Source of the DNA: Acytostelium subglobosum LB1 | Lineage: Eukaryota > Evosea > Eumycetozoa > Acytosteliales > Acytosteliaceae | Direction of reading: 5' to 3' | Assembly (NCBI RefSeq): GCF_000787575.1 | Contig: NW_012236526.1 | Coordinates: 124,001-188,000 of the forward strand | DNA: 64,000 bases | In this document: positions 3,190 through 44,987 of the stretch, piece by piece | Numbering within the stretch: position 1 is the stretch's first letter | Layout: every line of letters starts with the position of its first letter | Notes under the pieces: generated by a model | What the model was told of the DNA's origin: nothing | The model's database searches: none | The model's input: only the letters and a program-made list of their open reading frames with translations | Program-made: the position numbers and the translations under genes

Positions 3190-4110
3190 GTCAACCGATG
3201 AACAGTGCACTCGGACTGCATGCGGCAGCCTGTCAGGTCTTGGAGACAGAGGTTCGGGGCAGAGAGCAGCTGCGGCGCTGCATGTCTAGAAGGTGACAGA
3301 GGTTCGGTGCAGCATTGCGACAGGGTAGCTGGTGGCAGAGGTTCAGCGCATCAGTCTAGATGGGGACAGAGGTTCGTGGCAGGTCAACAACACGGCGGAT
3401 GGTGAAGACTCATGGCAGCATGGCGGCAGAGGTCCACTCAGGGCAGCATGGCGTCTGAAGTTTACACAAGTCAGCATGGCGGCAGAGGTTCACAAGGCAG
3501 CTGAGGTTAGCTGATTGGTGGCAGCGGCACTCAGGGCATCAGGGGCAGAGATTCCTGGCCATGGTCAGCATGGCGGCCCTCGGTCTAGATTGAGACACAG
3601 GTTCGCAGTGGACATCAGTGGCAGCATCGCGGCAGTGTAGCTGGTGGTCGAGGTTCAGGGACATCAACACGCATCAGAGGCCAGCAGCACGGCGGCAGAG
3701 ATCAGACAGCATGGCGGCAGAGGTTCACAAGGCAGCACAGCGGCAGAGGTCAACTCAGCATCATGGTGGCAGAGGTTCGGGGCAGTGGTCAGACAGCACG
3801 GCGTCAGAGGTTGTGTGTATATGTATACATGTAAGTGTATAAGTAGAGAGTGAATAGGAATGAATGGAGATTGAGTGAGATAGCTGCTATTTATAATTGT
3901 GTCTGTCCCATTCAACCAACCATCAGTGACGGATTTTGAAACCCAACCGTTGACATGGTGTGTGAGTGAATTCAAATTCAAATCCATCCCCCTTTAACTG
4001 ACATTTTCACTTGTGAACATCACGTGATTAACTTTAAATTCGAAGTTCATCAAAAACAGAGGAGGACCACAACAAAACCCAAAACAACAACAACAATCAA
4101 TATCTGAAGC
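3190..4110. repeat. Partial third copy of the duplicated unit: G-rich minisatellite and its AT-rich tail
   Basis: From about 3200 to 3825 the sequence is built from degenerate units around the core GCAGCATGGCGGCAGAGGTT. It is followed by a tail (about 3890-4000) with an AACCAACCA element, an AACCCAACCGTT element and ATTCAAATTCAAAT. The same order is found after the minisatellites at 8.8-9.2 kb and 14.65-14.95 kb, so this is the end of a further, 5'-truncated copy of the island unit. Open frames through it are by-products of the repeat and are not called. Confidence 0.75.
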
Positions 4111-5095
4111 AATGTGTTCAAAAGTTTGTCACGAACTTGAATCAGGAGGACAATAGTACCAACTGTTCAATCAATCAATCAATCAATCAATCAGATAATC
4201 AATCTTATATATGAATGTGTTCAATCAAACAAGATTGGAGTGTCACCAGTTGGACCAAGATGTATCAATCCGACAAGAATAACAGCCTCACCACCCAATG
4301 TGTATGACCTACAGACAGTTGCCAATTACATGTCGACTTTGGTGAACAACTTGCAACACCACGAGTGCTCGATCAATCATCTGGACTGGTGAGCTGTTGA
4401 GCAAGGCTCCTTGCTTGACCATCAATATCATTCATTCAATCAATCAAACTTAGTTCCTGTGGGCCAGGGCCATACAACATGCAACATGGACATTATCTCG
4501 CAACCACCGCCATTTTCAATCAGCTGGGCTGATTCAGCCATGGGCATCCCCCCTTCACATTGGGCAAGCTCAGTCAAGATGCATGATGACGAGGTCGAGC
4601 GACCCACTTACTTTGACAACATCTAGTACTTGGCAGCAGGCCGAACACATCATCGCCAAACCAATGTCGTTTGCTCACCAACTGGATACTCTTGTAGATG
4701 CCAACCTAATCCAGCCCACGCACTATCTCTCTCAGTTTCCAGCCAAGGCCTTGTCATCACCCATGCGTTGGGATTAACGTTGGATTGGGCCTGCTCACCG
4801 ATAGGAATTTTGGGTGACGCACTGTAAAGATGGTGAGGCTGCACTCATTCAAATGGCATCAAGGCCCACTTCCAAGTGACTGATCAACAAGGCGCTGGGT
4901 GTTCATTGATCACAGGCAAACATATCAAGACCAACCTGGCGAGCTCATTCAATCAATCATACATGAAGTACGTAACAGTTAACACATTACATTGGTATTC
5001 AAGATTGATCGACTGATTGTTGTGATAGCCACTAATCCCGTCTCATCATGATTCCATTGCCCATCAACCAGCAACCATGTTTTCTCACCAACTAT
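4110..5095. other. Non-genic stretch with decayed coding-like fragments
   Basis: No intact gene is visible. Short coding-like peptides occur on the plus strand, for example around 4225-4390 (GPRCINPTRITASPPNVYDL), broken by stops and tetranucleotide repeats (4167-4192). I do not recognise the source gene. The base composition is more balanced than normal spacer here, which fits a pseudogene remnant. Confidence 0.4.
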
Positions 5096-5788
5096 AGATA
5101 GCAGGATAGTGAACAACCATTTAGTCACAAGTTAGAGAGATTTTCAATCACGATCAACATTCAGTCATACCAACAAGATCGAGCTCATTCATCCTCATTG
5201 CACTCAACGTGGTAGTCCCGCACTGTGCCTATCACAGCAACGATAAATGAGCAATCACAGAGAGTCATCATCCCAATGGCTTCCTCCAAACGCAGAACGC
5301 AACAACTCAATGATCAATGTCGGTGTTAGAGCCATCACATCACGATGGTGTATATAACCTGCTGCAACACCTCGGGCCCAAAAGCAAGGAGCCATCACAG
5401 CGAGTTAGCATCCCAGCTAGCACTCAGTCAGCCAGTCAGTCAGCAAGAAAGAAAGAGCATTACATCTCAGTCAGAGGCGTGAGGCGCTGCCCTCGTCAAT
5501 CGCTACCGACAGCATGAGTTCAACTTGGCACTCATCAACAACGCATGGTACACAGATCACATGCAAGATCACAATGGACACCAGAGCAGTGTCACAACAA
5601 CACTCATTCATTCAATCGTTCATCAGAGTATTCTAGTTGGTGGTAAGGTCGTTGGGGCTCACTCAGCGTCAACCAAGTCTCATCCAGAGGACACCATCAA
5701 CGATGCGAACGTGAACTTCATTGATGATGGCACTGAGATGGTATTGGGTGATACAAATTCAAATGGACCGTTAAATGGTCAATCTGTT

Positions 5789-5812
5789 AATTAAATATTT
5801 AAATATTTAATT
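5789..5812. promoter_or_regulatory. 24-bp perfect AT palindrome upstream of the 209-residue gene (unit 1)
   Basis: A perfect palindrome centred on TATTTAAATA lies about 375 bp upstream of the ATG of the unit 1 gene. The identical 24 bp occurs at 11135-11158 in unit 2, preceded in both by ACAAATTCAAATGGACCGTT. Retention in both otherwise diverged upstream regions makes a cis-acting role possible; AT-richness alone is a weaker explanation. Confidence 0.4.
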
Positions 5813-6185
5813 CAAAATGTGTCTTTAAGTGTGTGAGTGTGGGTGTGTCTCTACTCACCCACTCACAGACACTCTCATTGCGGTGAATGTCCTTGGACAA
5901 GTGGGCATTGACATCACTCATTACCTTATCACACTATTACATGTATGTACACATAAATAACATTATTACTATGTTATTATAATTCTATCATCATTCTAAT
6001 TCATAATACTAACATTGATTCTCTCTCTACTCACCAACGATTCATCAATCAATCAATCAATATCAATCTATCAATATCATCAATATCATAGACTCTTTAC
6101 TTCGTCTATTGCCAAACCATTATCTGCTATACAAGAATATCTTTCTCAACAGTGTTTTCCAACGCTACCAATCAATCTATCAATA

Positions 6186-6186
6186 A

Positions 6187-6218
<32 letters not shown>

Positions 6219-6916
6219 CAATATATATACAATCCAGCCAAACTCATTCGACCTTTGTTCAACAGGCACATACCCAAGAACTTGTTGCTGGCCGACTTAA
6301 ATCACAGGGTCATCACCCTAATAAGGATAGACTTTGACAAAAAAACAGCAGTCATCAAAATGTACCCAATTCTAAGTTTATTCGATAGTCGACCAAGGAC
6401 ATTGTTATTGGGCGAGGAATCTTCTAAAAAGGTGATTTATACACTTCTTGTGCGCACTGATGGAGTCCATGATCCAATTAGGATAACATATACACCACAC
6501 AATGAGATCCATCAAACTCTATTCATTGGGAGGACAAACCTACCAGAGAACCAGTTGCCAGATCATCCCAATGGTCAACAGGAACCAATTCCAAATGGTA
6601 AGTATATATCAAATGAACTTGCATGCTACTGTCAAAAAATAATACTAACGATCCATTCAATCATCACCTTTGATGCTTCTCATCCATGTCACTCAAAGAT
6701 ATTGGCATCCAACAACAGCCACATGACCTCGGACCAATACCTGGAGACCAAGTGATGATGCCACAACCACCTAAACCATTCAATCATCCAGCCGTCCAAG
6801 CAGACCCAGGCCAACACCACCTAGGCATCAGATACCAATACCCACCATCACCAGATGATGAGGTGGATGAGCCAGTCTTCTCACCTCCGGTCCCTCACCT
6901 TTTCAACAAACAGTAA
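6186..6916 (+). CDS. Unrecognised 209-residue protein, island copy 1
   Basis: Exons 6186-6597 and 6699-6916 join in phase 1 at a GTAAGT donor and CTCAAAG acceptor to give 209 residues. A poly-N start is followed by two related motifs (KLIRPLFNRHIPKNLLL and YPILSLFDSRPRTLLLG) and a Pro-rich tail ending PPSPDDEVDEPVFSPPVPHL plus FNKQ. There is no signal peptide or membrane segment. The paralogue at 11562 has the same length, the same intron position and phase, and the same tail, although the rest is strongly diverged. This supports a real, rapidly changing gene. I do not recognise the family. The start is the ATG opening the poly-N run. Confidence 0.6.
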
Positions 6917-7640
6917 TTTACCTCTATATATATTGCCGTCGATCAAGCAGATGAGTGATGGGTAAAACCCAAATATCTCTCGGCTGGCGATTGAAACCAA
7001 TCAACCACCAACATCAACAACCAACAACAACAACAAATTCGATTACCAACGCACCAATCAGTGGTCCTACATCCATCGCCCGAACCCAGATGACACAGTG
7101 GAGACGTTGTGATTCATTCACACGATGACCTGTCGTTGCGAGGTCTATTCCCTCCAAGTCATCCAGTGCCGTGCCAGTGCCGTGCCAGACCGTGTGCCAT
7201 GCCGCCGAGCCAAGCCAGGCCAAGCCGAGGTGGACCTTTCCAGGACCGAATACTACTAACATTTCCTCCCATCACCATTTGGCCATCTCCGCAAGGGGGT
7301 GGCCGTGGCCCATCATGCAAGAGGGATGGGTCGGCCTGTCATGCAAGAGGGACGGGTGGGCCCACCATGTAAGAGGGGTGGGCACGGCCTGGGACTACAC
7401 CTGTCGCTATTAGACTTTGGGCAGCGTCGAGACAGGTATGGCAGCAACTTTGTTGACTTTGAGAGTTTCTTCTCATTGTCACAAGTGCTGCCTTTATTTT
7501 TTTTAAAGCCGTTGGGCAGCAACCGTGCCCAGGCGACATCATTGAGTTGTACTTTTCCAATTGTTGTTATTCTCCTTCCAAGTCACACTTGCACAACTCC
7601 TGTCTTCATCGTTTATTAATGCTTTGATTATGATCATTCC
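6917..7640. other. GC-rich conserved block downstream of copy 1
   Basis: From about 7070 to 7640 this sequence differs from 12420-13020 at only about ten positions by eye, far fewer than the coding exons beside it. It contains three related direct repeats around CATGCAAGAGGGATGGGT (7313-7385) and a GTGCCGTGCCA direct repeat (7167-7188). The 87-codon open frame in each copy is explained by DNA identity and is not called as a gene. It could be a non-coding RNA, a 3' UTR or a gene-conversion tract. Confidence 0.5.
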
Positions 7641-8815
7641 AGTTGGATACACTCATCAACTTGGCAGGATGGCGGTTAGTCAATGATGGCAACACGGCGG
7701 TTGTCAGCGTGGCTGTCTGGTTGAAGACAGAGGTCTGGACAGTGGTCAACTCGAGATGGACAACTTGGCAGCATGGCGTCGCACTTGTCAGCGTGGCTGT
7801 CTGTCTGGTTGGAGTCAGAGGTTGTCGACGGTGGCCATCTTGTTGGCATGGAGGCGGGCAACAAGGCAGGCGGTAGTTAACGTGGCAGTTAGTCAAGTTG
7901 GAGACAGAGGTCCTGGACTATGGTCAACGTGGCAGCATAGTGGCATTCTAGTTGGAGACAGAGGTTCTGGGTTGTGTCCAACTCGAGATCCACCACAAGC
8001 ATGGCGGTGGTCAGAATGGCAGAGTCACAATGGTGCCGGCTGTCTAGATGTAGACAGAGGTTCTGGGTTGTGGTCAGTCAGGGCACATGGCAACCTCATT
8101 CTAGATGGAGTCAGAGGTTCGGGGCTGCGGACAGCTTGGTAGCATGGCCGAGTCACAAAGGCGGCCGTCTGTCTTGTTGGAGACACTGACTTGACAAGGA
8201 CTACACAGCGGTGTTCAAGGCACAAGGTCAAGGAGAAGGTAGAGAGAAGAGGAGAGAAGGGAATGGTGTAAGTAAGCAGAGTATAGGTGAGCAGCTGTGC
8301 GATCATTGGTGTAGTAGTACTCACTCATTGAGGGACAGAGGTTCAGGGCTAAGGTCACTCAAGGCAGCATGGCGAAGTCACAATGGCTGCCGTCTGTTCG
8401 TTGGAGACAGAGGCAGTGGTCAGACAGCATGGCGGCAGTGGTCAGGCAGCTTGTTGGCACCAGTGGTAGTGGTTCATGGCTGTGGTCAACGTGGAAGCAA
8501 GGCGGCAGTCAATCTAGTTGGAGACAGAGGTTCTGGCTATGGTCAACATGGAAGCACGACGGCAGTCCATCAAGATGGTGACAAAGGTTCATGGCTGTGG
8601 TCAACGTGGAAGCATGACGGCAGTCCATCAAGATGGTGACAGAGATTCATTGCAACTTCGCTGCGATGGAGACACAGGTGGTGAACACTGACTTGGAGAA
8701 GGACCACACAGGCACAAGGTCAAGGAGAAGGCAGAAGAGAAGAGAAGATAGTGTAAGTAAGCAGCAGATAGTGGTGCAATTAGAAGTTTAGTAGTACTCA
8801 CTCATTAATTGATAT
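7640..8815. repeat. G-rich minisatellite of unit 1
   Basis: Units of roughly 45-50 bp repeat the words TTGGAGACAGAGGTTCTGGG, GTGGTCAACGTGG and CAGCATGGCGG with variable order. The array is divided by two copies of a non-G-rich module (about 8190-8335 and 8685-8810) with AAGGTCAAGGAGAAGG and TAGTAGTACTCACTCATT, giving a higher-order repeat. The same architecture is present at 13020-14620. No coding function is supported. Confidence 0.8.
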
Positions 8816-9600
8816 AATTTCTAAAACTCATTAGTATCTCATCAGCAGTGAGACAACAAGGCACAACAAAGTGGTGAGTGATACATGTCAATGTGTTGTT
8901 TATTATTGATGTATTTGTATATGTTCTGGCATAAGTATGTATATATGTATATGTGTACAAGTAGGAGAGAGTGAGTGCAATGCCAATGAGAGAGTAGTGA
9001 CCCAGTGTCACAGTGACATGTGGACCACATCTAACCAACCACCATTTGGAACTCAACCGTTATTTCGATTCGAATGGGCGCTATTTTCAAATTCAAATTT
9101 CATAACTCCCACACTTTGAAGTTCATTTATTTTATTGGTCAAGAGGTGTAATTTTGACTTCAACCTTAACAGTGCTCTTGCGTGAACATTCCCAAGATAT
9201 TATTTTAATGATCATTATTACTAACACACTCCATTCATTCATTCATCCAACAGCTGACCATCAGTACTTATAATATATAATCAATTTGCATTTGTATATG
9301 TAATGTGATCGTTTCCACCCAAATGATCAATTGATACGATTGATTGGGTCAGCCCAGAGTGGTGATGGTCCGTCTTCTCGTTTGGTGTCGTCATGACCCG
9401 ACCAATCAATCAACTAGTATGTACTATGATGCTGAGGACAGTTGGTCCACCAGATTGCTCACCAAGTATCACTCCCAAAGGTCGCAGGATCAGCCATTAG
9501 ATCAATGATAATCTCAGTTACCAACTCGACCAAGATACAAGCAGCGTGGTCCCCATCACCGAGGACGTCTTCCACAAAACAGTGACTGCTCACCTCTGAG
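8816..9600. other. Tail of unit 1 and spacer
   Basis: This holds the AT-rich tail shared with unit 2 (AACCAACCACCATTTGGAAC, then ACTCAACCGTTATTTCGATTC), followed by a less conserved spacer up to the SAC pseudogene. No gene is visible. Confidence 0.5.
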
Positions 9601-9619
9601 AACACCTCCTCAAGTCATC

Positions 9620-10640
9620 ATGGTGTCGCGTCGCTCTCGTTTCCGCGCGGGCACGCGATTCAAAATTAGAAACATCAACGACGATGGCAATGTGGCTAAC
9701 TTTGTTGAGACGAAGCAGATGATCTGGGAAGCACCGCTATGCACCATAAGAAGATGGAACGCGTTAGCCACCTAACCGATGGAGTTGGTACTGTTGATCT
9801 AGCAAAGTACTTGAAGCTTTCTAGTCATGGTGGCCAAGATGTACCTGTCATACGCAACTGTGACCATCAGGTGGAAGTTGAAATGGTCGAGCCATCTGGA
9901 GATGTGGTCAATGCGTGCTCTGAGGTGCTGGATCATTGATCAGTCGGCTTGCCCTTGTCCAATGTCGCCATGGGTGATGCGCCAAGAACTTTGGCACGCT
10001 CTCCTTAATGCAGCTACGCTGCAGTGTGCCGTCTTTTGGAACCAGTCATCGCCACACAGTTCTCGGACTCTATGATCAACATGTCCAAGATTCGCAAGGT
10101 CAGGAAGGAGATCTCTGTGCTCAGGACGACGCCCGCCTTCCAAGCACACATCAAGGAGATGCTGCTAAAGTAAGGAATCAAAGTGATCATTAACCTGAGC
10201 AAACTGAAGCAGGGCGAGGCCGAGCTTTTCAGTGCGTACGAGGACGACATCCTGAACGCCGACACCGTGACCTACATTGCCTCCTACAACCTCAACGAGC
10301 AGCTCAAGATCAATCGCATTGACTCACTCGATTGTGTGATCGACGACACCGTGACCTACATTGCAACCTACNACCTCAACGATCAGCTCAAGGGCAATCG
10401 CATGGACTCGCTCGATCATGACGAACCGGTCTCCAGAACGGCACGGTGCCCACCAACTGCAAGGATTGTCAAGACAGGACCAACGCTCTAGTCGCCTTGA
10501 AGTTGTTGGAGCATCATCCGTAGATCCTCAAAGCAATGGACCAGCATCACAGTCTCTCAAACTGCACATACATTGAACAGCACCTAAAGACGATATGGGC
10601 AGACAATGGCTTTTTAGATGGTACCAGTCCATGAATCACG
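9620..10640 (+). pseudogene. SAC-domain phosphoinositide phosphatase pseudogene
   Basis: Translated pieces carry two SAC-family hallmarks: SRFRAGTRFKIRNINDDGN followed by VANFVETKQ near 9630-9720, and NCKDCQDRTNAL near 10448-10483, matching the catalytic C-x5-R-T/S loop of SAC phosphatases, which remove phosphates from phosphoinositides. Between them are TPAFQAHIKEMLLK and KVIINLSKLKQGEAEL (10130-10230) and, after the loop, LKTIWADNGF. The pieces lie in different frames with several stops, and a segment around DTVTYIA is repeated at 10263-10340 and 10347-10410. One base (10372) is undetermined. It sits between the two island units, so it was probably trapped during duplication. Confidence 0.65.
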
Positions 10641-11134
10641 CAGCGTTAACAACATTAGAACAGACTGTCCAATATGTACAACTGTCGAATGATTCAATGA
10701 ACATCGATGTGGCATTGAACTTGAGCATCATCATCAGATCACCACTGGAGTGCAACACACCTCCTTTGATCGTTGACTTGTTCATTCGACTATATATGTC
10801 ATGAAGTAGCTAATCGACATTGAACATGGACAGGACGAATCTCAAGGATGGTGAACAACCATTTAGTCTCAAGACAGAGTTTCAATCACGATCAAGAGAG
10901 AGAGTTCAGAACCAACACTCGCTCACCCCCAGTCAGTCAATCACTCAGTACCCGCATCAACATCACAATGCTCAGCAAGCACATATTACACCACTGATCA
11001 CATAGAGTATTCCATTTGGAATACGATCACTAGCCTCAATCAAGACTCATCAACGTGAACTTCATTGATGATGACACTGAGATGGTATTGAGTGTGATAC
11101 AAATTCAAATGGACCGTTAAATTGTCAATCTGTT

Positions 11135-11158
11135 AATTAAATATTTAAATATTTAATT
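11135..11158. promoter_or_regulatory. 24-bp perfect AT palindrome (unit 2)
   Basis: It is the same 24-bp palindrome as at 5789-5812, here about 405 bp upstream of the ATG of the copy 2 gene. Confidence 0.4.
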
Positions 11159-11561
11159 CAAAATGTGTGTTTATAGGTGTGTGTGAGTGTGTGTGTGGGC
11201 TTCTACTCACCCACTCACGGACACTCTGTCATTGCGGTGAATGTCCTTGGACAAGTGGGCATTGACATCACTCATTACCATATTACCTAATTACATGTAT
11301 GTACACTTATAAAACATTATTACAATGTTACAATAATACTATCATCATTCTAATTCATAATACTAACATTGATTCTATCTCACTCTCACCAACGTTCTTA
11401 TTCATCAATCAATCAATCAATATCAATCATATTATTATTATTTATAGACTCTCTACTTCGGCTTTTGCCAAACTATAATCTACACAACTATAAAATCACT
11501 TTAAACAGTGTTTTCCAACACTACTACGACTTCTTCAACTCGATTTATTATTATTCTTACA

Positions 11562-12276
11562 ATGCAATTTAATTATATTCAATCACTCTATCCACCAGCC
11601 AAGCCCCTTAGACTGTTGTTTGACCCGACAGTTCCCAAGACCTTGTTTGGGCCCACCAAAAACGACAAGGTCAGGAAGTACATGGTCCTGATTGACATTG
11701 GTATCACTTATATCCTACTCCCCAACGCCAAACCAATCGTACCACTGTTCGACAACCGACGCCCAAAGATTTTATTCGGAAAGGATGAAGATGGAGTCAG
11801 GTTCTCACGCAGGGTACCCCTTGATGTCGCCTTTGTGATTGCGAATACTGTCCCATATGCTCCTCTCAACCAGGAGAATAGTAATGTCCAACTCATTGAC
11901 TGTTTCTACCTCAGGATGTTACGATCGTTGCCTGTCTACCCCAGAAGGCAACCAGTATCCACCCCAAATCAAATGGGACCAAATCGTATGTTTACATCAA
12001 ATGAACTCATTCATTCATTGATTGAGTGATGTCTGCCTGTCTAACCATCCTCGTCCACTTTTCATCCAAGAAAATGAAATCAATCAACAACATTCCGACC
12101 TCCGACCCAGACTTGGAGACCAACTATATCCAACATTACCATCCAGTCATCCAGTCACCCAAGCAGACATTGGCCACCACCAACAACCCAGATACCAATA
12201 TCCACCATCACCAGATTATGAGGTGGATGAGCCAGTCTTCTCTCCTCCGGTCCCTCACCTTTTCAACAAACAGTAA
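11562..12276 (+). CDS. Unrecognised 209-residue protein, island copy 2
   Basis: Exons 11562-11985 and 12071-12276 join in phase 1 (donor GTATGT, acceptor TCCAAG) to give 209 residues, the same length as copy 1. Two copies of one motif are clear: KPLRLLFDPTVPKTLFG and KPIVPLFDNRRPKILFG. The tail PPSPDYEVDEPVFSPPVPHL plus FNKQ is almost identical to copy 1, whereas exon 1 is alignable only in patches. No signal peptide or membrane segment is seen. The function is unknown. The start is the first ATG; copy 2 lacks the poly-N run. Confidence 0.6.
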
Positions 12277-13020
12277 TTCATATCTATTTATCTTGCCGTC
12301 GATCAAGCAGATGAGTGATGGGTAAAACCCAAATATCTCTCGGCTGGCGATTGTAACCAATCAACCACCAACATCAACAACAACAACAACCAATATTATC
12401 AACATCAAAGTCGAGTTACCAACGCACCAATCAGTGGTCTTACATCCATCACCCGAACCCAGATGACACAGTGGAGACGTTGTGATTCATTCACACGATG
12501 ACCTGTCTTTGCGAGGTCTATTCCCTCCAAGTCATCCAGTGCCGTGCCAGTGCCGTGCCAGACCGTGTGCCATACCGCCGAGCCAAGCCAGGCCAAGCCG
12601 AGGTGGACCTTTCCAGGACCGAATACTACTAACATTTCCTCCCATCACCATTTGGCCATCTCCGCAAGGGGGTGGCCGTGGCCCATCATGCAAGAGGGAT
12701 GGGTCGGCCTGTCATGCAAGAGGGACGGGTGGGCCCATCATGTAAGAGGGGTGGGCACGGCCTGGGACTACACCTGTCGCTATTAGACGTTTGGGCATCG
12801 TCGAGACAGGTATGGCAGCAACTTTGTTGACTTTGAGAGTTTCTTCTCATTGTCACAAGTGCTGCCTTTATTTTTTTTAAAGCCGTTGGGCAGCAACCGT
12901 GCCCAGGCGACATCATTGAGTTGTACTTTTCCAATTGTTGTTATTCTCCTTCCAAGTCACACTTGTACAACTCCTGTCTTCATTGTTTATTAATGCTTTG
13001 ATTATGATCATTCCAGTTGG
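12277..13020. other. GC-rich conserved block downstream of copy 2
   Basis: This is the counterpart of 6917-7640, with the same GTGCCGTGCCA direct repeat and three CATGCAAGAGGG-type repeats. A CGATCAAGCAGATGAGTGAT stretch just after the stop codon is also shared between the copies. Confidence 0.5.
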
Positions 13021-14620
13021 ATACACTCGTCAACTTGGCAAGATGGCGGTTAGTCAATGATCTGATGGCAACACGGCGGTTGTCAGCGTGGCGTCTGTCT
13101 TGTTGGAGACAGAGGCTTCTGGACTTTGGTAAACTCGAGATGGACAACTTGGCAGCATGGCGTCGCACTTTGTCATCGTGGCTGTCTGTCTGGTTGGAGT
13201 CAGAGGTTGTAGACGGTGGCCATCTTGTTGGCATGGAGCCGGGTCGACGTGGCAGCATAGTGGCAGTTTAGTTGGAGTCAGAGGTTCAGGGCTGTGGTCA
13301 ACGTGGGAGCACGCCTGGCAGTCAGTCAAGTTGGAGACATTGGTTCATGGCTGTGATCAACGTGTCTGGCAACACGGCGACGGACCACAGAGGTTGACTC
13401 GGTGCAGAATGGGAGGCCGTGGTCATTCAGGACATCTTCAGTCTAGCAGAGACAGAGGTTCTGGACAACTTGGCAGCATGGTGGACGACTGTACAGATGG
13501 AGATAGAGGTTCGTGGCTGTGGTCAACGTGGGAGCACGTCAGTCAAGTTGGAGACAGAGGTTCTGGGCTGTGGACAGCTTGGCATGGACAATGGCGGTGG
13601 TCAGAATGGCAGAGTCACAATGGGGCTGTCTAGATGTAGACAGAGGTTCTGGGTTGTGGTCAGTCAGGGCACATGGCGACCTCATTCTAGATGGAGACAG
13701 AGGTTCGGGGGTGTGAACAACTTGGTAGCATGGCGGTGGTCAGCATGGCCGAGTCACAAATGCGGCCGTCTGTCTTGTTGGAGACACTAACTTGGACAAG
13801 GACTACCCAGAGGTCTTCAAGGCACAAGGGAAGACAGAAGAGAAGGGAGAAGAGAATGGTGTAAGTAAGAAGAGTATAGGTGAGCAGCTGTGCGATCATT
13901 GGTGTAGTAGTACTCACTCATTGAGGGACAGAGGTTCAGGGCTACGGTCACTCAAGGCAGCATGGTGGAGTCCGGCCGGCTGTTTCGTTGGAGACAGAGG
14001 TTCTGGGCTGTGGACAGGTCGCGGTCAGCATGGCCGAGTCATAATGGCGTTGGTCAACGTGGCAGCATGGCGGTCGTCTGTCTAGTTGGAGACACAGGTT
14101 CATGGACTCAGGCAGCAGATGTCAACTCAGGCAACATGGCGGCAGTGATCAGACAGCATGGCGGCAGAGGTTAGGGGAAGTGGTCAGGCAGCTTGTTGGC
14201 AGAGGTACACTCTGGGCAGTGGTTCATGGCTGTGGTCAACAGCACGGCGGCAGTCAAGTTTGAGGCAGAGGCTCTAGACACATGGCGTCTGTCAATCTAG
14301 TTGGAGACAGAGGTTCTGGGCTGTGGTCAACATGGCTGTGGCAACACGGCGGACGTCTGTCAAGATGGTGACAAAGGTTCATGGTCAACGTGGAAGCACG
14401 ACGGCAGTCTATCAAGATGGAGACTGAGATTCATTGCAACATGGCAGCACGGCGGACGTGATTGAGATACAGGTGGTGAACACTGACTTTGACAAGGACC
14501 GCAAAGCGGGCTTCAAGGCACACGGTCAAGGAGAAGGCAGAAGAGAAGAAGAGGATAGTGTAAGTAAGCATGCAGCAGATGGTGGTGCAATTAGAAGTCA
14601 AGTAGTACTCACTCATTGAT
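13020..14620. repeat. G-rich minisatellite of unit 2
   Basis: Same unit words as at 7640-8815 (TTGGAGACAGAGGTTCTGGG, GTCAACGTGGCAGCATGGCG), again interrupted by two modules with AAGGTCAAGGAGAAGG or a variant and TAGTACTCACTCATT (13795-13925, 14480-14615). It is longer than the unit 1 array, as expected for a tandem repeat that changes length. Confidence 0.8.
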
Positions 14621-16476: not shown

Positions 16477-17115
16477 TTATTGGACCAGACCAGCAGCGCT
16501 CTGCTGCTTGATCAAGTGATTGATGGCCATCGAGCGGTAGGATGCGAGATCTGGGGTCACCATACCAACAACCTTGGCTGCATCATCCCATCGTCTGAGC
16601 TGAACCTTGAGTGCAAAGTAGTCGGAGGCCTCGAACTGGGCGACCTCGGCGGCATTGAATGGACCACCTTGGAATCGCAGTGATGACTTGCTCGCCTCGC
16701 TTAACGAGCTGTAATACTGATCATCCTTGCCGGTCAAGTAGCGCTTGACATTGACGTGAGCCTCCACAAGCTGAGCCACCTTGTCTGAGAAGCCGAGGTC
16801 GCGCAGGTACTTGCCACCAATGTGCTCGTGGCCGTGAGCGCCAACACTGACTGTGTTGCCCGACTCGTCAGTCATTAACATCTGTTGCTGCATATCGTGG
16901 GCGACGACGAACTGACCAATATCGTGCAAGAGTGCGGCGAGAACAGTCTCGTCGTCACATGCGGCAGAGGCAGCCGAGTTGGCAGCCTGCAGAGCATGCT
17001 CCAACTGCGAGATGTCCTCGCCAATATATACCTCCTCCATACCAGTTGCCAACAGACTCCAAATCTGGTCGACCACAGCTGTGGCCTTGGATTCAATTGT
17101 TGTAGTAGCGTCCAT
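16477..17115 (-). CDS. HD-domain mixed-valent diiron oxygenase, PhnZ/TmpB-like
   Basis: The 212-residue single-exon protein carries the pattern I recall for the phosphonate oxygenase PhnZ: Y30-x2-E33 and H40 in YIGEDISQLEHAL, H64-D65 in LLHDIGQ, H96, H120 and K124 in HVNVKRYL, S142 and D177 in RRWDDAAK. Relative to PhnZ numbering (Y24, E27, H34, H58, D59, H80, H104, K108, S126, D161) the offset is a constant 6 before the HD pair and a constant 16 after it, so one insertion of about 10 residues separates two conserved halves. PhnZ cleaves the C-P bond of a 2-hydroxylated aminoethylphosphonate to give glycine and phosphate; TmpB acts on a trimethylated analogue. It faces a PhyH-family gene across a shared spacer. 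ATG 17115 was chosen; an upstream in-frame extension to 17223 looks like 5' UTR. Substrate is inferred. Confidence 0.78.
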   Translation of the reverse strand: MDATTTIESKATAVVDQIWSLLATGMEEVYIGEDISQLEHALQAANSAASAACDDETVLAALLHDIGQFVVAHDMQQQMLMTDESGNTVSVGAHGHEHIGGKYLRDLGFSDKVAQLVEAHVNVKRYLTGKDDQYYSSLSEASKSSLRFQGGPFNAAEVAQFEASDYFALKVQLRRWDDAAKVVGMVTPDLASYRSMAINHLIKQQSAAGLVQ

Positions 17116-18198
17116 CACTATATCTTTGTCTAAGTTATGTTTGATTATTACAATAATGACGAATTGATTGTTTGATTGAGTTAGTGGAGTGTGTGATGAG
17201 ATTGAACTTGAGCACACACACATTCACTGACCGACTGAACGAATGAAAGACTCGATGATGGGTCCATCAATGGACTCACATGGCGCTGTGATTCGGGACA
17301 CGGATACCACCTCGTCGGGTGTGTGCGCGATGGGTTTTCTCAAGACTGAATCTTCGCGTCGTCACTGCCGATGATGATGATGTTGGTATCGACTCACCCA
17401 GACAACTAATACACACTACACTGGTATCACCTATTACTTTTCTAATTAAGTTGCTCACGCCATTGAGGTGGTTAAACTTGAAACACCGATGGTATCAGAG
17501 AGTGTAGTGTTAACAACAACTACCCCACTAATCAAGATATTTCCCTTCAAAGTGTGTCGTCTTGGGGGTAGGGTTGAAATTTGATTTGTTTCAAAACAAA
17601 GTCAAGGTCAGGGCCTGATTCGATCAATTTACACAGACGAGTCGTCTTTTTCATTAAGTCAATCACAGTGGGTGTGTTGGAGGGTGTGGGGTAGTGTTGT
17701 AAATGATGCAAAGAATAACGAAATATCCACACAAACAGAGTTGATCAGGTATTGGTTTCCAGTTCCGAAAGTGGACTCTCGGTTCGGTATTCTTTGCTTG
17801 AGCATCTTGGGTGTAGAGTGTGGTGAGGCGGTGATAGGGATAGAGGCCTAAACAAGGAATGGTAACCTTCTCTCTCTCTTACACTCACTCTCAGTGACTA
17901 TCACTTCACTACTAGCTAGTTTAGTCAATGAATCTTCAATCATAGCAACCAAACTAGGTTACACAGTCGTGTGCAGGCTGGGCTTTAAAACCATGTAATC
18001 TCCACTGTTTAGTTTTATTACAACTTAATATATAACTTATAAGTTATAAAACAAATACTATCTCTCTTTCTATCTCTTTATCTCTTTATTTCTTTCTAAC
18101 TTTCTATTTCTCCCCTTCTCTCTTTCCCATCCCCTCTCCCCACCGGAACTATCCCCCCCTCCCAAACCCATAAATATAATATATACATATAATAAGAA
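17116..18198. promoter_or_regulatory. Shared divergent promoter region between the PhnZ-like and PhyH-like genes
   Basis: This 1.08-kb spacer separates the two divergent starts. It contains a G-rich element GGGTGTGGGGTAG on the plus strand (about 17679-17700), GA-like CTCTCTCTC tracts, and a run of TCTTTCTATCTCTTTATCTC pyrimidine repeats (18060-18130) directly before the PhyH-like start. Open frames inside are not supported as genes. Co-regulation is an inference from arrangement. Confidence 0.4.
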
Positions 18199-19020
18199 AT
18201 GGACGCACCAATCAACACATACCCATATATAATCAACGAGGAGCAAGCCAACTCATTCAATGAGAAGGGATTCTTGGTCGTTAAGAACTTGTTGACTGAG
18301 GAGGAGAAGGTCAACTTGGTCAAGTGGACCAACGAGATCAGAGACATGCCACCCACCAAGGGCAAGTGGATGCAGTACTACGAGATCAACGCCAGCACCA
18401 ACGAGAAGCAGCTGTGCCGCACTGAGAACTTCACCCCCTTCCACGACGGCATCCGCAGCATCGTCAAGGGCGACAAGCTCATGGGCACACTCTCCCAGCT
18501 GATTGGCCAGCCAGTGCTGCTGTTCAAGGAGAAGATCAACTACAAGCAGGCTGGCGGCGGTGGCTTCCCACCCCACCAGGACGCCCCTGCCTACGTACAG
18601 CTGGGCCAAGTGCACCACATCACCGCCATGCTTGCCGTCGACGCCTCGACCGTCGCCAACGGCTGTCTCTTTGTCGTGCCAGGCTCGCAGAAGGCCGGTA
18701 TGCTGCCAATGGAGACCGACAACACCATCTCGCGCGAGTGGTGCTCCGACAAGGAGTGGATCCCCGTTGAGTGCGAGGTTGGCGACGTGCTGATCTTTGG
18801 CTCGTACATTGCCCACAAGTCTGGCACCAACACCACCGCCTCGTCCAGAAACGCCATCTACCTGACATACAATGCCGAGTGTGATGGAGACAAGCATGCC
18901 CTGTACTATGATGAGAAGCGTCGTCTTTTCCCACCCTCATCCGATCGTGAGGAGGGTAAGGACTACAGCGAGGGTGCCAAGATCTACAACCTTGGAACTC
19001 CAATTAACAACAACCAATAA
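18199..19020 (+). CDS. Fe(II)/2-oxoglutarate dioxygenase, PhyH family, PhnY/TmpA-like
   Basis: A 273-residue intronless protein of the phytanoyl-CoA dioxygenase family. The iron facial triad is H126-x-D128 (PPHQDAP) and H206 (IAHKSG), with R217 in SSRNAIYLTYN positioned to bind 2-oxoglutarate; an aromatic strand GCLFVVPGSQKAG precedes the distal His. The length is about that of bacterial PhnY. PhnY hydroxylates C1 of 2-aminoethylphosphonate, producing the substrate of PhnZ, and a PhnZ-like gene sits divergently next door. Codon use is strongly GC-biased, suggesting high expression. Other PhyH enzymes act on lipids or alkaloids, so the substrate assignment rests on context. Confidence 0.75.
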   Translation: MDAPINTYPYIINEEQANSFNEKGFLVVKNLLTEEEKVNLVKWTNEIRDMPPTKGKWMQYYEINASTNEKQLCRTENFTPFHDGIRSIVKGDKLMGTLSQLIGQPVLLFKEKINYKQAGGGGFPPHQDAPAYVQLGQVHHITAMLAVDASTVANGCLFVVPGSQKAGMLPMETDNTISREWCSDKEWIPVECEVGDVLIFGSYIAHKSGTNTTASSRNAIYLTYNAECDGDKHALYYDEKRRLFPPSSDREEGKDYSEGAKIYNLGTPINNNQ

Positions 19021-28602: not shown

Positions 28603-29454
28603 ATGATCAATTATAATAATATTATTGTATTGTTGTTGTTGGTGTTTGTCTCATCAATGACAGTGATGTCAGCTGGAGTACCCGATGACTCCTCCTTTTA
28701 CTTGTTCAGACGATCACCAGAGAAGTGCTACAACGCCAACACTTGTATCAAGTATCTGCTCTGGGAGATCAACTCTTCAAAGAACGACTCAGAGGTCGTC
28801 GACTTTGTATTTGACAAGACCTTTGGCAATAGATCATTGGTGGAGCATGCCCAGGAGAACACTGTCGTGGTCCAGGGCTACTACATGACCGTCGTGGAGA
28901 GTGGCCATGCCATCAGTCGCTTCAAGGTGATGCATGCATTCGCGTTGATGCCTCTGCCTCCATCCATTCGTCCAAGAGGAATGTTCTACACCATTTCCAA
29001 ACAGCTGACCTGTGCCAAGCCGCCATGCAAGGGATACACGGGCGCGATTCTCAACAACAAACGTGCCATCTCAATCCAGGGATTGAACATGTCGAGCTAC
29101 TCCTCATTATTGCTTGACAACGCATGGTTGAATGCCCGTATACTCAGTGGCAATGCTCTGGTGCGCGCAGATGTCAATAGCAAAGGTCAATCATTCGTCA
29201 AGGGTATCTACATGAAGTTGGAAGACACCGTGGCGTCATCATGCAAGTCTGTTGAGAAGATAGCATGTGCTGCATCACATGTACAAGTATACAAACGTGA
29301 TGTAAATCGATGTCTTGTGTCAGATGGCTGTGCCAAACAGTTACTCAATGCAGTCAAGTCTCCAAAATGTAGTTCAGGCTATCGTCTTGTATCATTCGCC
29401 ACTCAACCAGGTGGTGCAATCAAGTATTACTGCGATCCATCATTCATACACTAA
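28603..29454 (+). CDS. Secreted cysteine-rich protein
   Basis: A 283-residue intronless protein with a clear signal peptide (IIVLLLLVFVSSMTVMSAG). The mature part has about 10 cysteines in paired clusters: SPEKCYNANTCIKYLLW, TCAKPPCKGYTG, RCLVSDGCAKQLL and YYCDPSF near the end. The alternation of a short C-x5-C element with a Tyr/Leu strand recalls small secreted modules such as bacterial DUF6748 proteins, but I am not sure of the family. Several N-x-S/T sites fit secretion or surface location. AATAAA overlaps the stop region. Confidence 0.7.
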   Translation: MINYNNIIVLLLLVFVSSMTVMSAGVPDDSSFYLFRRSPEKCYNANTCIKYLLWEINSSKNDSEVVDFVFDKTFGNRSLVEHAQENTVVVQGYYMTVVESGHAISRFKVMHAFALMPLPPSIRPRGMFYTISKQLTCAKPPCKGYTGAILNNKRAISIQGLNMSSYSSLLLDNAWLNARILSGNALVRADVNSKGQSFVKGIYMKLEDTVASSCKSVEKIACAASHVQVYKRDVNRCLVSDGCAKQLLNAVKSPKCSSGYRLVSFATQPGGAIKYYCDPSFIH

Positions 29455-29830: not shown

Positions 29831-32102
29831 ATGTTATATTCAATTTATAATTACATAAAGTCATTCTTTGTGGCTGTTGAGCCTGTTGTAGAACTCCAAC
29901 AACAACAGGTACCACAACAATCAAACAATAACAACAACAACAACAACAACAATAATAATACAGCTTCAACCAATGATGATAAGAGGAATAATAGGAAGAG
30001 CATGTACTTCTCAGAGAGAGTGCTACCAAATGATCCTGTTGCCATAAAGAGAGAACAATCAATGCTTGCCAATCCCGATGAACTAATTGAAGACCCCATG
30101 ATAATAAGCTATGCCAATGAAGAACAGAGAGCTGGTAAACTGACTGGAATGGTATTATTCACTTTAGCCGACCTGTATGTTTATCATATCATGTGTCATA
30201 TGACACACCTTCTGATGGATCGTCCGACTAATCAATGTTGACAAATTCATAGACCTTTGAACATATCATTCACAACACCATCTGGACAATCCATTATCAG
30301 AACAAACGAGTCCACTGTTGTCTTTGCCAAAAGTAAGTACAATTATCAAACATTCAATCAATCAATCAATCAATCAATCACATGGATACTAATCATTATA
30401 ATCCAGATCAAACATTCACGATTCCATATACTTCCAATGTCACCCAAGATGCACCTAAACAAGATAACTCTGAACAACAGAGATTGGCCCAAGTGGAAGC
30501 TGCTGAGAAGAAACGTTTGGCTGACATTGAGACTGAGCGTAAGAGGTTGGTTGATGAATCTGAGAAGCAACGTCTGGCCAAAGAGAGTGAGCAAAAGCGC
30601 ATGGCACAGGAAGCAGAGCAACTGAGACTGGCAAAGGAGGCTGAGCAGAAACGTGTAGCGCATGAAGCCGAGCAACAGAGACTGGCAAAGGAAGCTGAAC
30701 AGAAGAAGGTTGCACAACAAGCCGAACAACAACGATTAATCCAGGAGCAAGAGAAACTTAAGGCTGCACAGGAGAAGGAGCGACTGGCCAAAGAAGCTGA
30801 ACAGAAGAGACTGGCTAAGGAGGCTGAGCAACAAAGACTGGCCAAGGAAGCAGAGCAGAAGCGCATTGCCCAGGAGGCCGAGCAACAAAGATTGGCCAAA
30901 GAGGCAGAGCAGAAGCGTTTGGCCCAAGAGGCTGCAGAGGTCGAGAAGAAGCGACTTGCTCAGGAGGCTGAGAACCAGAGATTGGCCAAGGAGGCCGAGC
31001 AACAGAGGTTGGCCAAGGAGGCTGAGAACCAGAGATTGGCCAAGGAAGCTGAACAGAAACGACAGGCACAAGAGGCTGAGCAGAAGCGCATCGCTCAGGA
31101 GGCCGAGCAACAGAGATTGGCCAAGGAAGCTGAGGACAAACGAGTGGCTCAGGAGAAAGAGAGAAAGGCCAAGGAGGATGAACAAAAGAGACTGGCACAA
31201 GAGGCCGAGCAACAAAGATTGGCCAAAGAGGCTGAACAGAAGCGCATTGCCCAGGAGGCCGAGCAACAAAGATTGGCAAAGGAAGCGGAACAAAAGAGAT
31301 TGGAACAGGAGGCTGAGAAACAGAGATTGGCTCAGGAGGCTGAACAAAAGAGATTGGCTCAAGAGGCTGAGAAACAGAGATTGGCTCAAGAGGCTGAGCA
31401 ACAGAGATTGGCCAAGGAGGCTGAGCAAAAACGATTGGCTGATGAGGCCGAACAACAAAGACAGATCAAGGAACAAGAGAGACAGAAGGCAGCACAGGAG
31501 AAGGAGAGACTAGAGAAGGAGGCTGAACAAAAGAGAGTGGCCGATGCCGAGGCTGAACGCAAGCGCCAGGCACAAGAGGACGAGGAGAAGAGGAAACTAA
31601 GCGATAAGAGGACAAGAGAGGAGGATACAGAGTCATATGAAAGGTCCTCCCCTGATACCAATAAGCTTATACATGTAAGTTACCCTTGGGGATGCAATCA
31701 CAATGACACATAGTACATGTATCTGACTACTGACATGATTCAATAAATCAGCTGACACTCGAGAGACCATCCAAGAAGGGAAGGAAGAAGCCCCAGAACA
31801 GATTGTCCCAACACCCAGCCATCAAGGAGGTTGTCTCCTACTCAAAGGAAGACACATCAGTGTCCACTACATCAACAGCCGCTGCAGACGAGGAACCATC
31901 AGCCACACCTACACCAACAGGACCAAGCAACAATGTGAGAAAGTATGGAGGTGTCGCAATGATTCCAGGTGGCATCGATCTGACTGCCGTTAAACTAAAG
32001 AAGCAGGCTGCAGCCAAGCCCGAGCAGCCCTCTCAGGCACCAGCCTCCGAGCCACAACAAGTAGATTTCCGCCATATGTTGAAGAAGAAGCCGACCCAAT
32101 AG
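29831..32102 (+). CDS. Long coiled-coil protein with actin-binding-like C-terminal motif
   Basis: Exons 29831-30174, 30253-30332, 30407-31674 and 31752-32102 join in phases 2, 1 and 0 to give 680 residues. An Asn-rich N-terminus and a small folded segment (PLNISFTTPSGQSIIRTNES) precede about 400 residues of near-perfect seven-residue-based repeats built on AEQQRLAKEAEQKR, predicted as one long charged helix. The C-terminus has a basic segment (RPSKKGRKKPQNRL), KYGGVAMIPGGIDLTAVKLK and finally DFRHMLKKKP, which resembles the DFRxxL actin-binding motif of myosin light-chain kinase. A cytoskeletal role is inferred from these two features only. Repeat unit number is likely to vary between strains. 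Confidence 0.8.
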
Positions 32103-43909: not shown

Positions 43910-44987
43910 ATATGCTGCCAGCAAGCTAAGTCCATTAACTGACAAATGCCATACCCTCAACTCTGCACTTACAGATCAATGGTTCAACCAAGATGAAGAG
44001 TACACAAGTTACTTCAAGCTCTCCCATAGTCAAGTGTCTCAGCTCTGTGAGAAGCACTCTTTTGAACACAAGGACATGCTCGTCTTCCTCATGAGGTGCC
44101 GCCACAACCTTCCCTGGTACATGATGGAGCGTGTGTTCCTATATCAATTGACAATCGCTCAGCTCAGGTACTCATTCACCAAGGTGTTCGATAGATTGAA
44201 GTCGTACTGCCATGGGTACTTCCAGGATGTGGTTCACAATGGAGAGCTTCGAGACAATCATGCAGAAATATGGAAAGATGGTATTAAGCACAATGTTCAT
44301 CTCATTGTGGACGGGTCAGAGCAGAGGATTCAAGTGCCGCCACACAAGACGATCAAGGATCTTGTTTATTCTGGCAAGAAATCAATGTATTCTTTGGCAG
44401 TGTTGGTCATTTGCGATATACGTGGCAAGATCGTGTATGTAGGTAAGACAGAGGGAGGCGCCCAGCCTGACGTCTCGCTCTACAAGGATGCTGCACCTAG
44501 ACTACAGGCTCTGTTCGATGAAGATATTGTCATTCTCGGTGACAAAGGATTCAAAGGAGGTCAGAAGTACTACACCAACACCATCACCCCCAAGATCAAG
44601 TCGGCTTCATTGATCGATCATATGGAGTACACAGACAAGATGATCAGAAAACGCACGCTCGATGAGCATCGCCTGCGTCAAGGAAAGGAGGCGACCAAGG
44701 TATCTAAGAAGTTGAAGGCATTGGAAGCCAAGGTCACCAAAGAAGGATTCGATGCCGAGCGTATCCTGAGAGAGAAAGATGAGAGCAATCGAATCAAGAA
44801 GGTGAGGATCATCATTGAGAATGTCTTTGGAGAGATGAAGAAATGGAACATATTGTCAGACACAATCAGATCACTTGGCGACCTTTCTGACAACATTCAA
44901 CGACACAACGCACTCTGGACAATTATCGCATATTTGACCAATATGTTCCACTCCTTTGGACGAGACGACGATTTCTTTAAGGTCTAA
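43890..44987 (+). CDS. Transposon ORF2: DDE superfamily transposase
   Basis: The frame encodes about 365 residues with an N-terminal helical DNA-binding region (YFKLSHSQVSQLCEKHSF) and a DDE_Tnp_4-type catalytic core: first D in HLIVDGSEQRIQVP, the strand YSGKKSMYSLAVLVICDIRG, second D in IVILGDKGFKG, and E in VRIIIENVFGEMKKW. The catalytic triad looks complete. The frame has no ATG before residue 63, well inside the conserved region, and stays open upstream through the ACA repeat. ORF2 may therefore be expressed as a fusion with ORF1 by frameshift or splicing, or the ACA repeat may have changed length. Confidence 0.85.
   Translation: MKKVKNKYAASKLSPLTDKCHTLNSALTDQWFNQDEEYTSYFKLSHSQVSQLCEKHSFEHKDMLVFLMRCRHNLPWYMMERVFLYQLTIAQLRYSFTKVFDRLKSYCHGYFQDVVHNGELRDNHAEIWKDGIKHNVHLIVDGSEQRIQVPPHKTIKDLVYSGKKSMYSLAVLVICDIRGKIVYVGKTEGGAQPDVSLYKDAAPRLQALFDEDIVILGDKGFKGGQKYYTNTITPKIKSASLIDHMEYTDKMIRKRTLDEHRLRQGKEATKVSKKLKALEAKVTKEGFDAERILREKDESNRIKKVRIIIENVFGEMKKWNILSDTIRSLGDLSDNIQRHNALWTIIAYLTNMFHSFGRDDDFFKV

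Follow-up and report, generated by a model that had tools for sequence, protein, structure and literature searches.

A divergent gene pair encoding PhnZ-like and PhnY*-like oxygenases in the dictyostelid Acytostelium subglobosum: a candidate module for oxidative aminophosphonate degradation

Whether bacteria-eating amoebae can cleave the carbon-phosphorus (C-P) bond of phosphonates by an oxidative route is a question raised by two genes of Acytostelium subglobosum LB1, which lie head to head in a 64,000 nucleotide stretch of contig NW_012236526.1 (the window). One encodes a predicted HD-domain diiron oxygenase that resembles PhnZ (the HD protein) and the other a predicted Fe(II)/2-oxoglutarate (2OG) hydroxylase of the PhyH family that resembles PhnY* (the oxygenase). 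A first-pass annotation of the DNA had proposed a phosphonate module of the PhnY*/PhnZ type; the tree and the structure match of the HD protein, profile matches and the gene neighborhoods of bacterial relatives speak for this proposal, and a changed contact at the position of PhnZ His62 and missed NCBIfam cut-offs speak against it. On balance the pair probably constitutes, as judged from sequence, a two-step oxidative aminophosphonate-degrading module.

The HD protein has PhnZ (4n71, E-value 6e-35) and TmpB (2e-23) as its best solved relatives in a phmmer search of PDB sequences, and is 41% identical to characterised PhnZ over 182 columns. Its residues Y30, E33, H40, H64, D65, H96, H120, K124, S142 and D177 correspond to PhnZ Y24, E27, H34, H58, D59, H80, H104, K108, S126 and D161; the predicted constant offsets, 6 through the HD pair and 16 beyond it, are borne out by the alignment, the shift reflecting 10 extra residues inserted in this protein compared with PhnZ. 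The H...HD...H...H...D motif that defines the PhnZ/TmpB-type HD diiron oxygenases, according to the available portion of PMC8177086, is complete in 111/111 aligned rows, this protein included. The YxxE motif, described in the same portion as a substrate-gated loop whose Glu contacts the amine in PhnZ (PMC8177086), is found as Y30/E33 and in 110/111 rows, with one gap, and residues K, S and R are likewise conserved. An AlphaFold2 model (predicted local distance difference test, pLDDT, 92.9) is matched by Foldseek to PhnZ 4n6w (E-value 5.8e-14, template modelling score TMt 0.92), and 10/10 PDB matches of the model at E<=0.001 are PhnZ or TmpB. These structure matches contradict a grouping with myo-inositol oxygenase (MIOX) or nucleotidases, one of two outcomes that had been named as fatal to the proposal; the MIOX Pfam match is weak and below cut-off, and MIOX structures appear at E 0.06 or worse.

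In a 42-row tree, built from the HD protein, 37/110 homologue rows, two PDB stretches and two second-copy planctomycete rows, the HD protein falls inside a 28-row clade (support 99/94) together with PhnZ, the enzyme of 2-aminoethylphosphonate (AEP) degradation. TmpB, the HD proteins linked to C-P lyase and the hydroxymethylphosphonate type of Gimesia all lie outside this clade. In approximately unbiased (AU) tests, whose p values are uncorrected for several tests, a forced union of the HD protein with TmpB is rejected (p 0.025), as is one with the Gimesia type (p 0.038); a grouping with Spirosomataceae is not rejected (p 0.26).

The partner gene had been described as encoding a 273-residue PhyH dioxygenase with an H126-x-D128...H206...R217 set, divergent from the HD gene, and both the open reading frames (ORFs) and the alignment agree with this. 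Ligands H126, D128 and H206 are present in 65/65 aligned rows and the 2OG-binding R217 in 64/65, and Pfam PhyH is matched at E 1.7e-33 (117 bits versus a cut-off of 22). In both proteins the agreement of the predicted active-site residues is far beyond chance. The oxygenase model (pLDDT 92.5) has a predicted 2OG oxygenase fold with a proline hydroxylase and EctD as nearest solved structures; by sequence the best solved relatives in PDB are EctD (E-value 1e-9), human PHYHD1 (6e-9) and human PHYH (8e-6).

The best NCBIfam model of the oxygenase is NF052437, the methylphosphonate hydroxylase PhnY* of Gimesia (E-value 4e-63). The pair might then resemble Gimesia PhnY*/PhnZ1, likewise a PhyH plus an HD oxygenase, in converting methylphosphonate through hydroxymethylphosphonate to formate and phosphate, and a forced grouping of the oxygenase with the Gimesia/Rhodococcus rows is not rejected (p 0.26). 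However, its score of 213.3 bits is far under the equivalog cut-off of 500, whereas a Gimesia-type locus that served as positive control (L147) reaches 559.8 bits and its HD neighbor 412 versus 300; moreover the HD protein groups away from the Gimesia type, in a different clade. Action on methylphosphonate is thus considered unlikely, and an aminophosphonate is favored over it because of the HD clade, the kept Glu33 and the pairing of the two genes.

Relatives of the oxygenase were compared in a 65-row set, from which fragments L096 and L129 (an HD match adjoins the latter) were left out, as were the duplicate loci L001 and L097-L100, and in a 47-row tree obtained by removal of 18 distant or long rows; the PhyH trees were made without the characterised AEP-type PhnY*. 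The 47-row tree places the oxygenase in a 31-row group behind a long 100/100 branch. An HD gene is adjacent or fused in 29/31 rows of this group, the oxygenase included, versus 0/34 other rows of the 65-row set, for which the flank covered was ~1.5 kb at most loci. The motif HQDAP is found in 31/31 rows of this HD-linked group; its Ala129 occurs in 31/31 versus 0/34 others and its Pro130 in 31/31 versus 3% of the 34 others. Since the group was read off the 47-row tree, the HD-neighbor and motif counts describe it and are no independent test of it.

A further 36-row tree holds 31/64 homologues of the 65-row set, the oxygenase and four PDB stretches (EctD, a proline hydroxylase, human PHYH and PHYHD1). 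The four solved enzymes lie across an 88/89 branch from the oxygenase, on very long branches. It had been foreseen that the oxygenase might group with lipid-acting PhyH enzymes; human PHYH and PHYHD1 do fall outside its group (88/89), but a forced grouping with the four solved enzymes is not rejected (p 0.19), so that a lipid-type identity is made less likely by the sequence comparison. The same test leaves room for recruitment of both proteins to a non-phosphonate substrate, the solved neighbors of the PhyH fold acting on amino acids, ectoine and lipids, and the HD protein having one changed contact residue and only the modest identity to characterised PhnZ given above. The two partner families are nevertheless represented side by side with both active sites kept, and the HxD-AP motif is absent from all four solved PhyH enzymes compared; a non-phosphonate role for the pair would therefore seem very improbable.

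The bacterial comparison rests on a genome scan with one peptide pattern, of which the best 80 of 476 matches were used, and "closest" holds within these; the samples of genomes from particular groups contain the seed genomes themselves. Among the closest oxygenases found are those of the Legionellaceae. Of 143 genomes from the family to which Legionella parisiensis belongs, 28 contain a PhyH match (E<=1e-20), and 22/22 full-length Legionellaceae oxygenases at 41-45% identity have an adjacent HD gene, which oxygenases L124 and L125 (39-40% identity) do not. These uncharacterised pairs (L071:3828-6609, L085:3-2333 and L104-L123) consist of adjacent or slightly overlapping genes; unlike the A. 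subglobosum genes they are on the same strand, keep the His62 of PhnZ and, in the two loci examined (L071 and L085), are preceded by a gene of the major facilitator superfamily (MFS). The nearest models to this MFS protein are an aromatic-acid and a phosphate:H+ symporter, far below cut-offs, and against the present assembly it matches L161 at 30% over most of its length and others more weakly; the family is too large for anything to be concluded about a transporter for the pathway. With the pair occurring in 22/143 genomes of the Legionellaceae, phosphonates might be something of a currency in the niche that amoebae provide.

Other samples gave PhyH matches in 17/369 genomes of the class of a SAR86 bin (Legionellaceae among them), 2/368 of the phylum of a deltaproteobacterial bin and 7/246 Planctomycetota, and 0/345 in Bacteroidota, a sample without a positive control in the group. 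The association of the two families takes several forms: a natural bacterial fusion in the SAR86 cluster bin (L076:978-2315, a 445-aa single frame with an N-terminal PhnZ-like HD followed by a PhnY*-like PhyH domain), head to head HD and PhyH genes in the deltaproteobacterial bin, and overlapping PhyH-HD genes on two actinobacterial plasmids. HD homologues of another, neighboring subgroup occur within C-P lyase clusters on Variovorax and Nostoc plasmids. A related PhyH group at 33-40% identity (L131-L142 and L145, from the class of the SAR86 bin) has no HD gene in the flanks examined, and is possibly a different hydroxylase.

A number of results weigh against the assignment of the pair to AEP-type PhnY*/PhnZ. 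Curated NCBIfam cut-offs are missed by both proteins (213.3 versus 500, 171.5 versus 214.6 and 129.2 versus 300); the second of these is the score of the HD protein against Phn-HD (TIGR03276), which 5 of 9 bacterial proteins scanned alongside pass and 4 fail, and the TmpB model gives it 123.5 bits versus 300. Forcing the HD protein together with the C-P-lyase-linked type is rejected only marginally (p 0.060). For the oxygenase, neither the groupings with the Gimesia/Rhodococcus rows and with the solved enzymes described above nor one with the unpaired rows (p 0.19) is rejected. In the 65-row tree it sits with Legionellaceae L124 and L125 (89/93), group members with no HD match in their genomes, and unpaired long rows are found among or beside its set; in the 36-row tree the unpaired Legionellaceae L126 and L130 enter its group (89/99). 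Its tree position among the HD-linked oxygenases is therefore weak, and the case for its kinship with them is carried less by tree statistics than by its identity to paired rows (up to 44%), the common motif and the HD neighbor.

To these is to be added the most concrete departure from PhnZ. The position of PhnZ His62, a feature of AEP-type PhnZ, is occupied by Gln68 in the HD protein, a residue found in only 2/111 rows (this protein and Novosphingobium L008), the other 109/111 having His. In the part of PMC7916636 that was available, His62 of PhnZ contacts the substrate hydroxyl, and changes there, in substrate or enzyme residues, cut activity substantially. The first-pass match to PhnZ thus stands for the iron ligands and the loop, and had overlooked Gln68 in place of His62. 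As read from the alignment, Gln68 is the most concrete ground to suspect altered kinetics or an altered substrate, and makes an ordinary PhnZ less likely. The HD protein also has a longer spacing between its HD dyad and the ligand His that follows, 32 residues versus 19-26 in the 110 other rows. Both features would fit a shifted pocket and action on another aminophosphonate (N-methylated, longer, or hydroxy-AEP itself), such as the 3-aminopropylphosphonate that fungal PhoF also takes according to the available text of PMC10574752, or the compounds reported in Acanthamoeba (below). The amine-binding Glu33 and all iron ligands are unchanged, however, and the grouping with TmpB, of the trimethyl-AEP pathway, is rejected; such a shift of substrate is rated rather unlikely, though it is worth bearing in mind.

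For the preferred aminophosphonate module, the first step would be hydroxylation by the PhyH-type protein, with Fe(II), 2-oxoglutarate and O2, of the phosphorus-bearing carbon; AEP would most likely be converted to (R)-1-hydroxy-AEP. In the second step the HD protein would bind (R)-1-hydroxy-AEP at a mixed-valent diiron center, with Glu33 taking the amine; Tyr30 would leave the iron, O2 would bind, and the C-P bond would be cleaved to yield phosphate and glycine. By this route the amoeba may recover phosphorus from phosphonolipids and phosphonoglycans of its food, and would probably be able to draw phosphate from food phosphonates. A food source is suggested because an exon-by-exon search of the assembly, which could miss a split gene, detected no phosphoenolpyruvate (PEP) mutase; its only match scores highest as a methylisocitrate lyase (225 bits versus 81 for PEP mutase). 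Counting against this argument, the sensitivity of the search is unproven, 0/14 control genomes passing the cut-off. Amoebae themselves are a possible source by analogy, because AEP and 1-hydroxy-AEP are reported in the membrane phosphonoglycan of Acanthamoeba in the accessible part of PMC8154272. The same glycan, from another amoeba, could suggest that the substrates of the pair are phosphonates made by the amoeba itself, modified or recycled by the two enzymes (e.g. to give 1-hydroxy-AEP for surface glycans), and not foreign ones; with the PEP mutase result set against it, there seems little chance that this is so.

The proposed aminophosphonate module may be compared with the four versions of the oxidative route treated in the available part of a review, three bacterial and one fungal, the last a fused PhoF (PMC10574752). 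With PhnY*/PhnZ of the uncultured bacterium HF130_AEPn_1, which convert AEP to glycine and phosphate, the pair shares the enzyme families, the HD ligand set and the YxxE loop, and differs from them in its eukaryotic host, divergent genes, Gln68, the longer HD-to-His stretch and the unmet NCBIfam cut-offs. In the trimethyl-AEP system TmpA/TmpB, the HD oxygenase TmpB has its fold in common with the HD protein but lies outside the clade of the latter; TmpA belongs to another 2OG family. The nearest eukaryotic parallel, compared here by description, is PhoF of the fungus Fonsecaea multimorphosa, which acts on AEP and 3-aminopropylphosphonate, but in which PhnY and PhnZ are fused, unlike the two ORFs on opposite strands found here (PMC10574752, as available). 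The claim of a eukaryotic module accordingly holds as regards the dictyostelid host, and not as a first instance, PhoF having preceded it. No account of such a pair in amoebae appeared among the literature matches listed, most subscription journals lying outside the search; oxidative C-P cleavage is known in bacteria and one fungus, and the pair is new, among those matches, as an amoeba candidate.

The features of the locus are collected in Table 1. Both ORFs are intact. The HD ORF can be extended upstream to a 248-aa frame starting at 17223; a start at 17115 is likelier because homology to relatives begins there. Searched with either query (HD or PhyH), the 30.7-Mb assembly has a single match at E<=0.001. 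Third-position guanine plus cytosine (GC) content is 0.64 for the HD gene, inside the range of seven other window ORFs (0.52-0.71), and 0.78 for the PhyH gene, above it.

Table 1. Positions of the gene pair and its landmarks in the window
Feature	Position	Strand	Remarks
PhnZ-like HD-domain diiron oxygenase gene (predicted)	16477..17115	-	212 aa, one open frame, open upstream to 17223
Gln68 codon (PhnZ His62 position)	16912..16914	-	placed from the coding sequence start, confirmed in sequence
Intergenic region between divergent starts	17116..18198	.	1,083 bp, 41% GC; putative shared promoter region
PhnY*-like Fe(II)/2-oxoglutarate (PhyH family) hydroxylase gene (predicted)	18199..19020	+	273 aa, one open frame
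HQDAP codons, PhyH-protein residues 126-130	18574..18588	+	metal-binding HxD and A-P of the HD-linked group; placed from the coding sequence start, confirmed in sequence

The host genome is that of a dictyostelid, since the Dicty_spore_N spore-coat family occurs at 10 places in the assembly, including one on the contig of the window (C50), and in 0/14 control genomes. Other genes of the window, among them ankyrin-repeat, Not1, TCF25 and IFRD genes, are of eukaryotic type, and contamination is contradicted by these neighbors together with the Dicty_spore_N place on the same contig. Searched against Rfam, the window yields nothing but a tRNA. Elsewhere in the window are a DDE_Tnp_4 transposase-domain ORF (44076-44987), a long ORF (30382-31713) that overlaps 27/54-bp repeat arrays, an ORF (28603-29454) that matches DUF6748 at that model's cut-off and, on the HD-gene side (3408-14455), several minisatellite-like arrays with units of 26-84 bp (e.g. 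8471-8650), some of them alike.

The first-pass suggestion that the pair was acquired from bacteria is a plausible hypothesis. Among the bacterial sequences compared the nearest HD relatives are in Bacteroidota (Runella, 47%) and the nearest oxygenases in Legionellaceae (44%), so that the nearest relatives differ between the two genes; for neither gene does the AU test reject a tree that joins it to the bacterial pairs (HD p 0.40, PhyH p 0.18). A viral origin finds no favor in the viral scans, which gave 0 (query P0002) and 1 (query A1) HD relatives and 5 PhyH relatives at 29-32%. Separately, PhnZ-like HD matches occur in a Pseudomonas phage record (OQ658365.1:61055-61546, no annotated feature) and in IMG/VR contig L091, and could stem from the host or represent auxiliary metabolic genes.

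An AEP-using diatom has been suggested, in the available part of PMC9765203, to use AEP without C-P bond cleavage. In its widest form the proposal for amoebae is that dictyostelids mineralise prey aminophosphonates by an oxidative module common to amoeba-associated Legionellaceae, that the His-to-Gln change marks a new specificity, and that soil predators form an unrecognised branch of phosphorus redox; so broad a claim is speculative and, taken as a whole, doubtful. Dictyostelids are genetically tractable in the laboratory, and a compact candidate gene pair in bacteria-eating amoebae would make phosphonate use by them directly testable.

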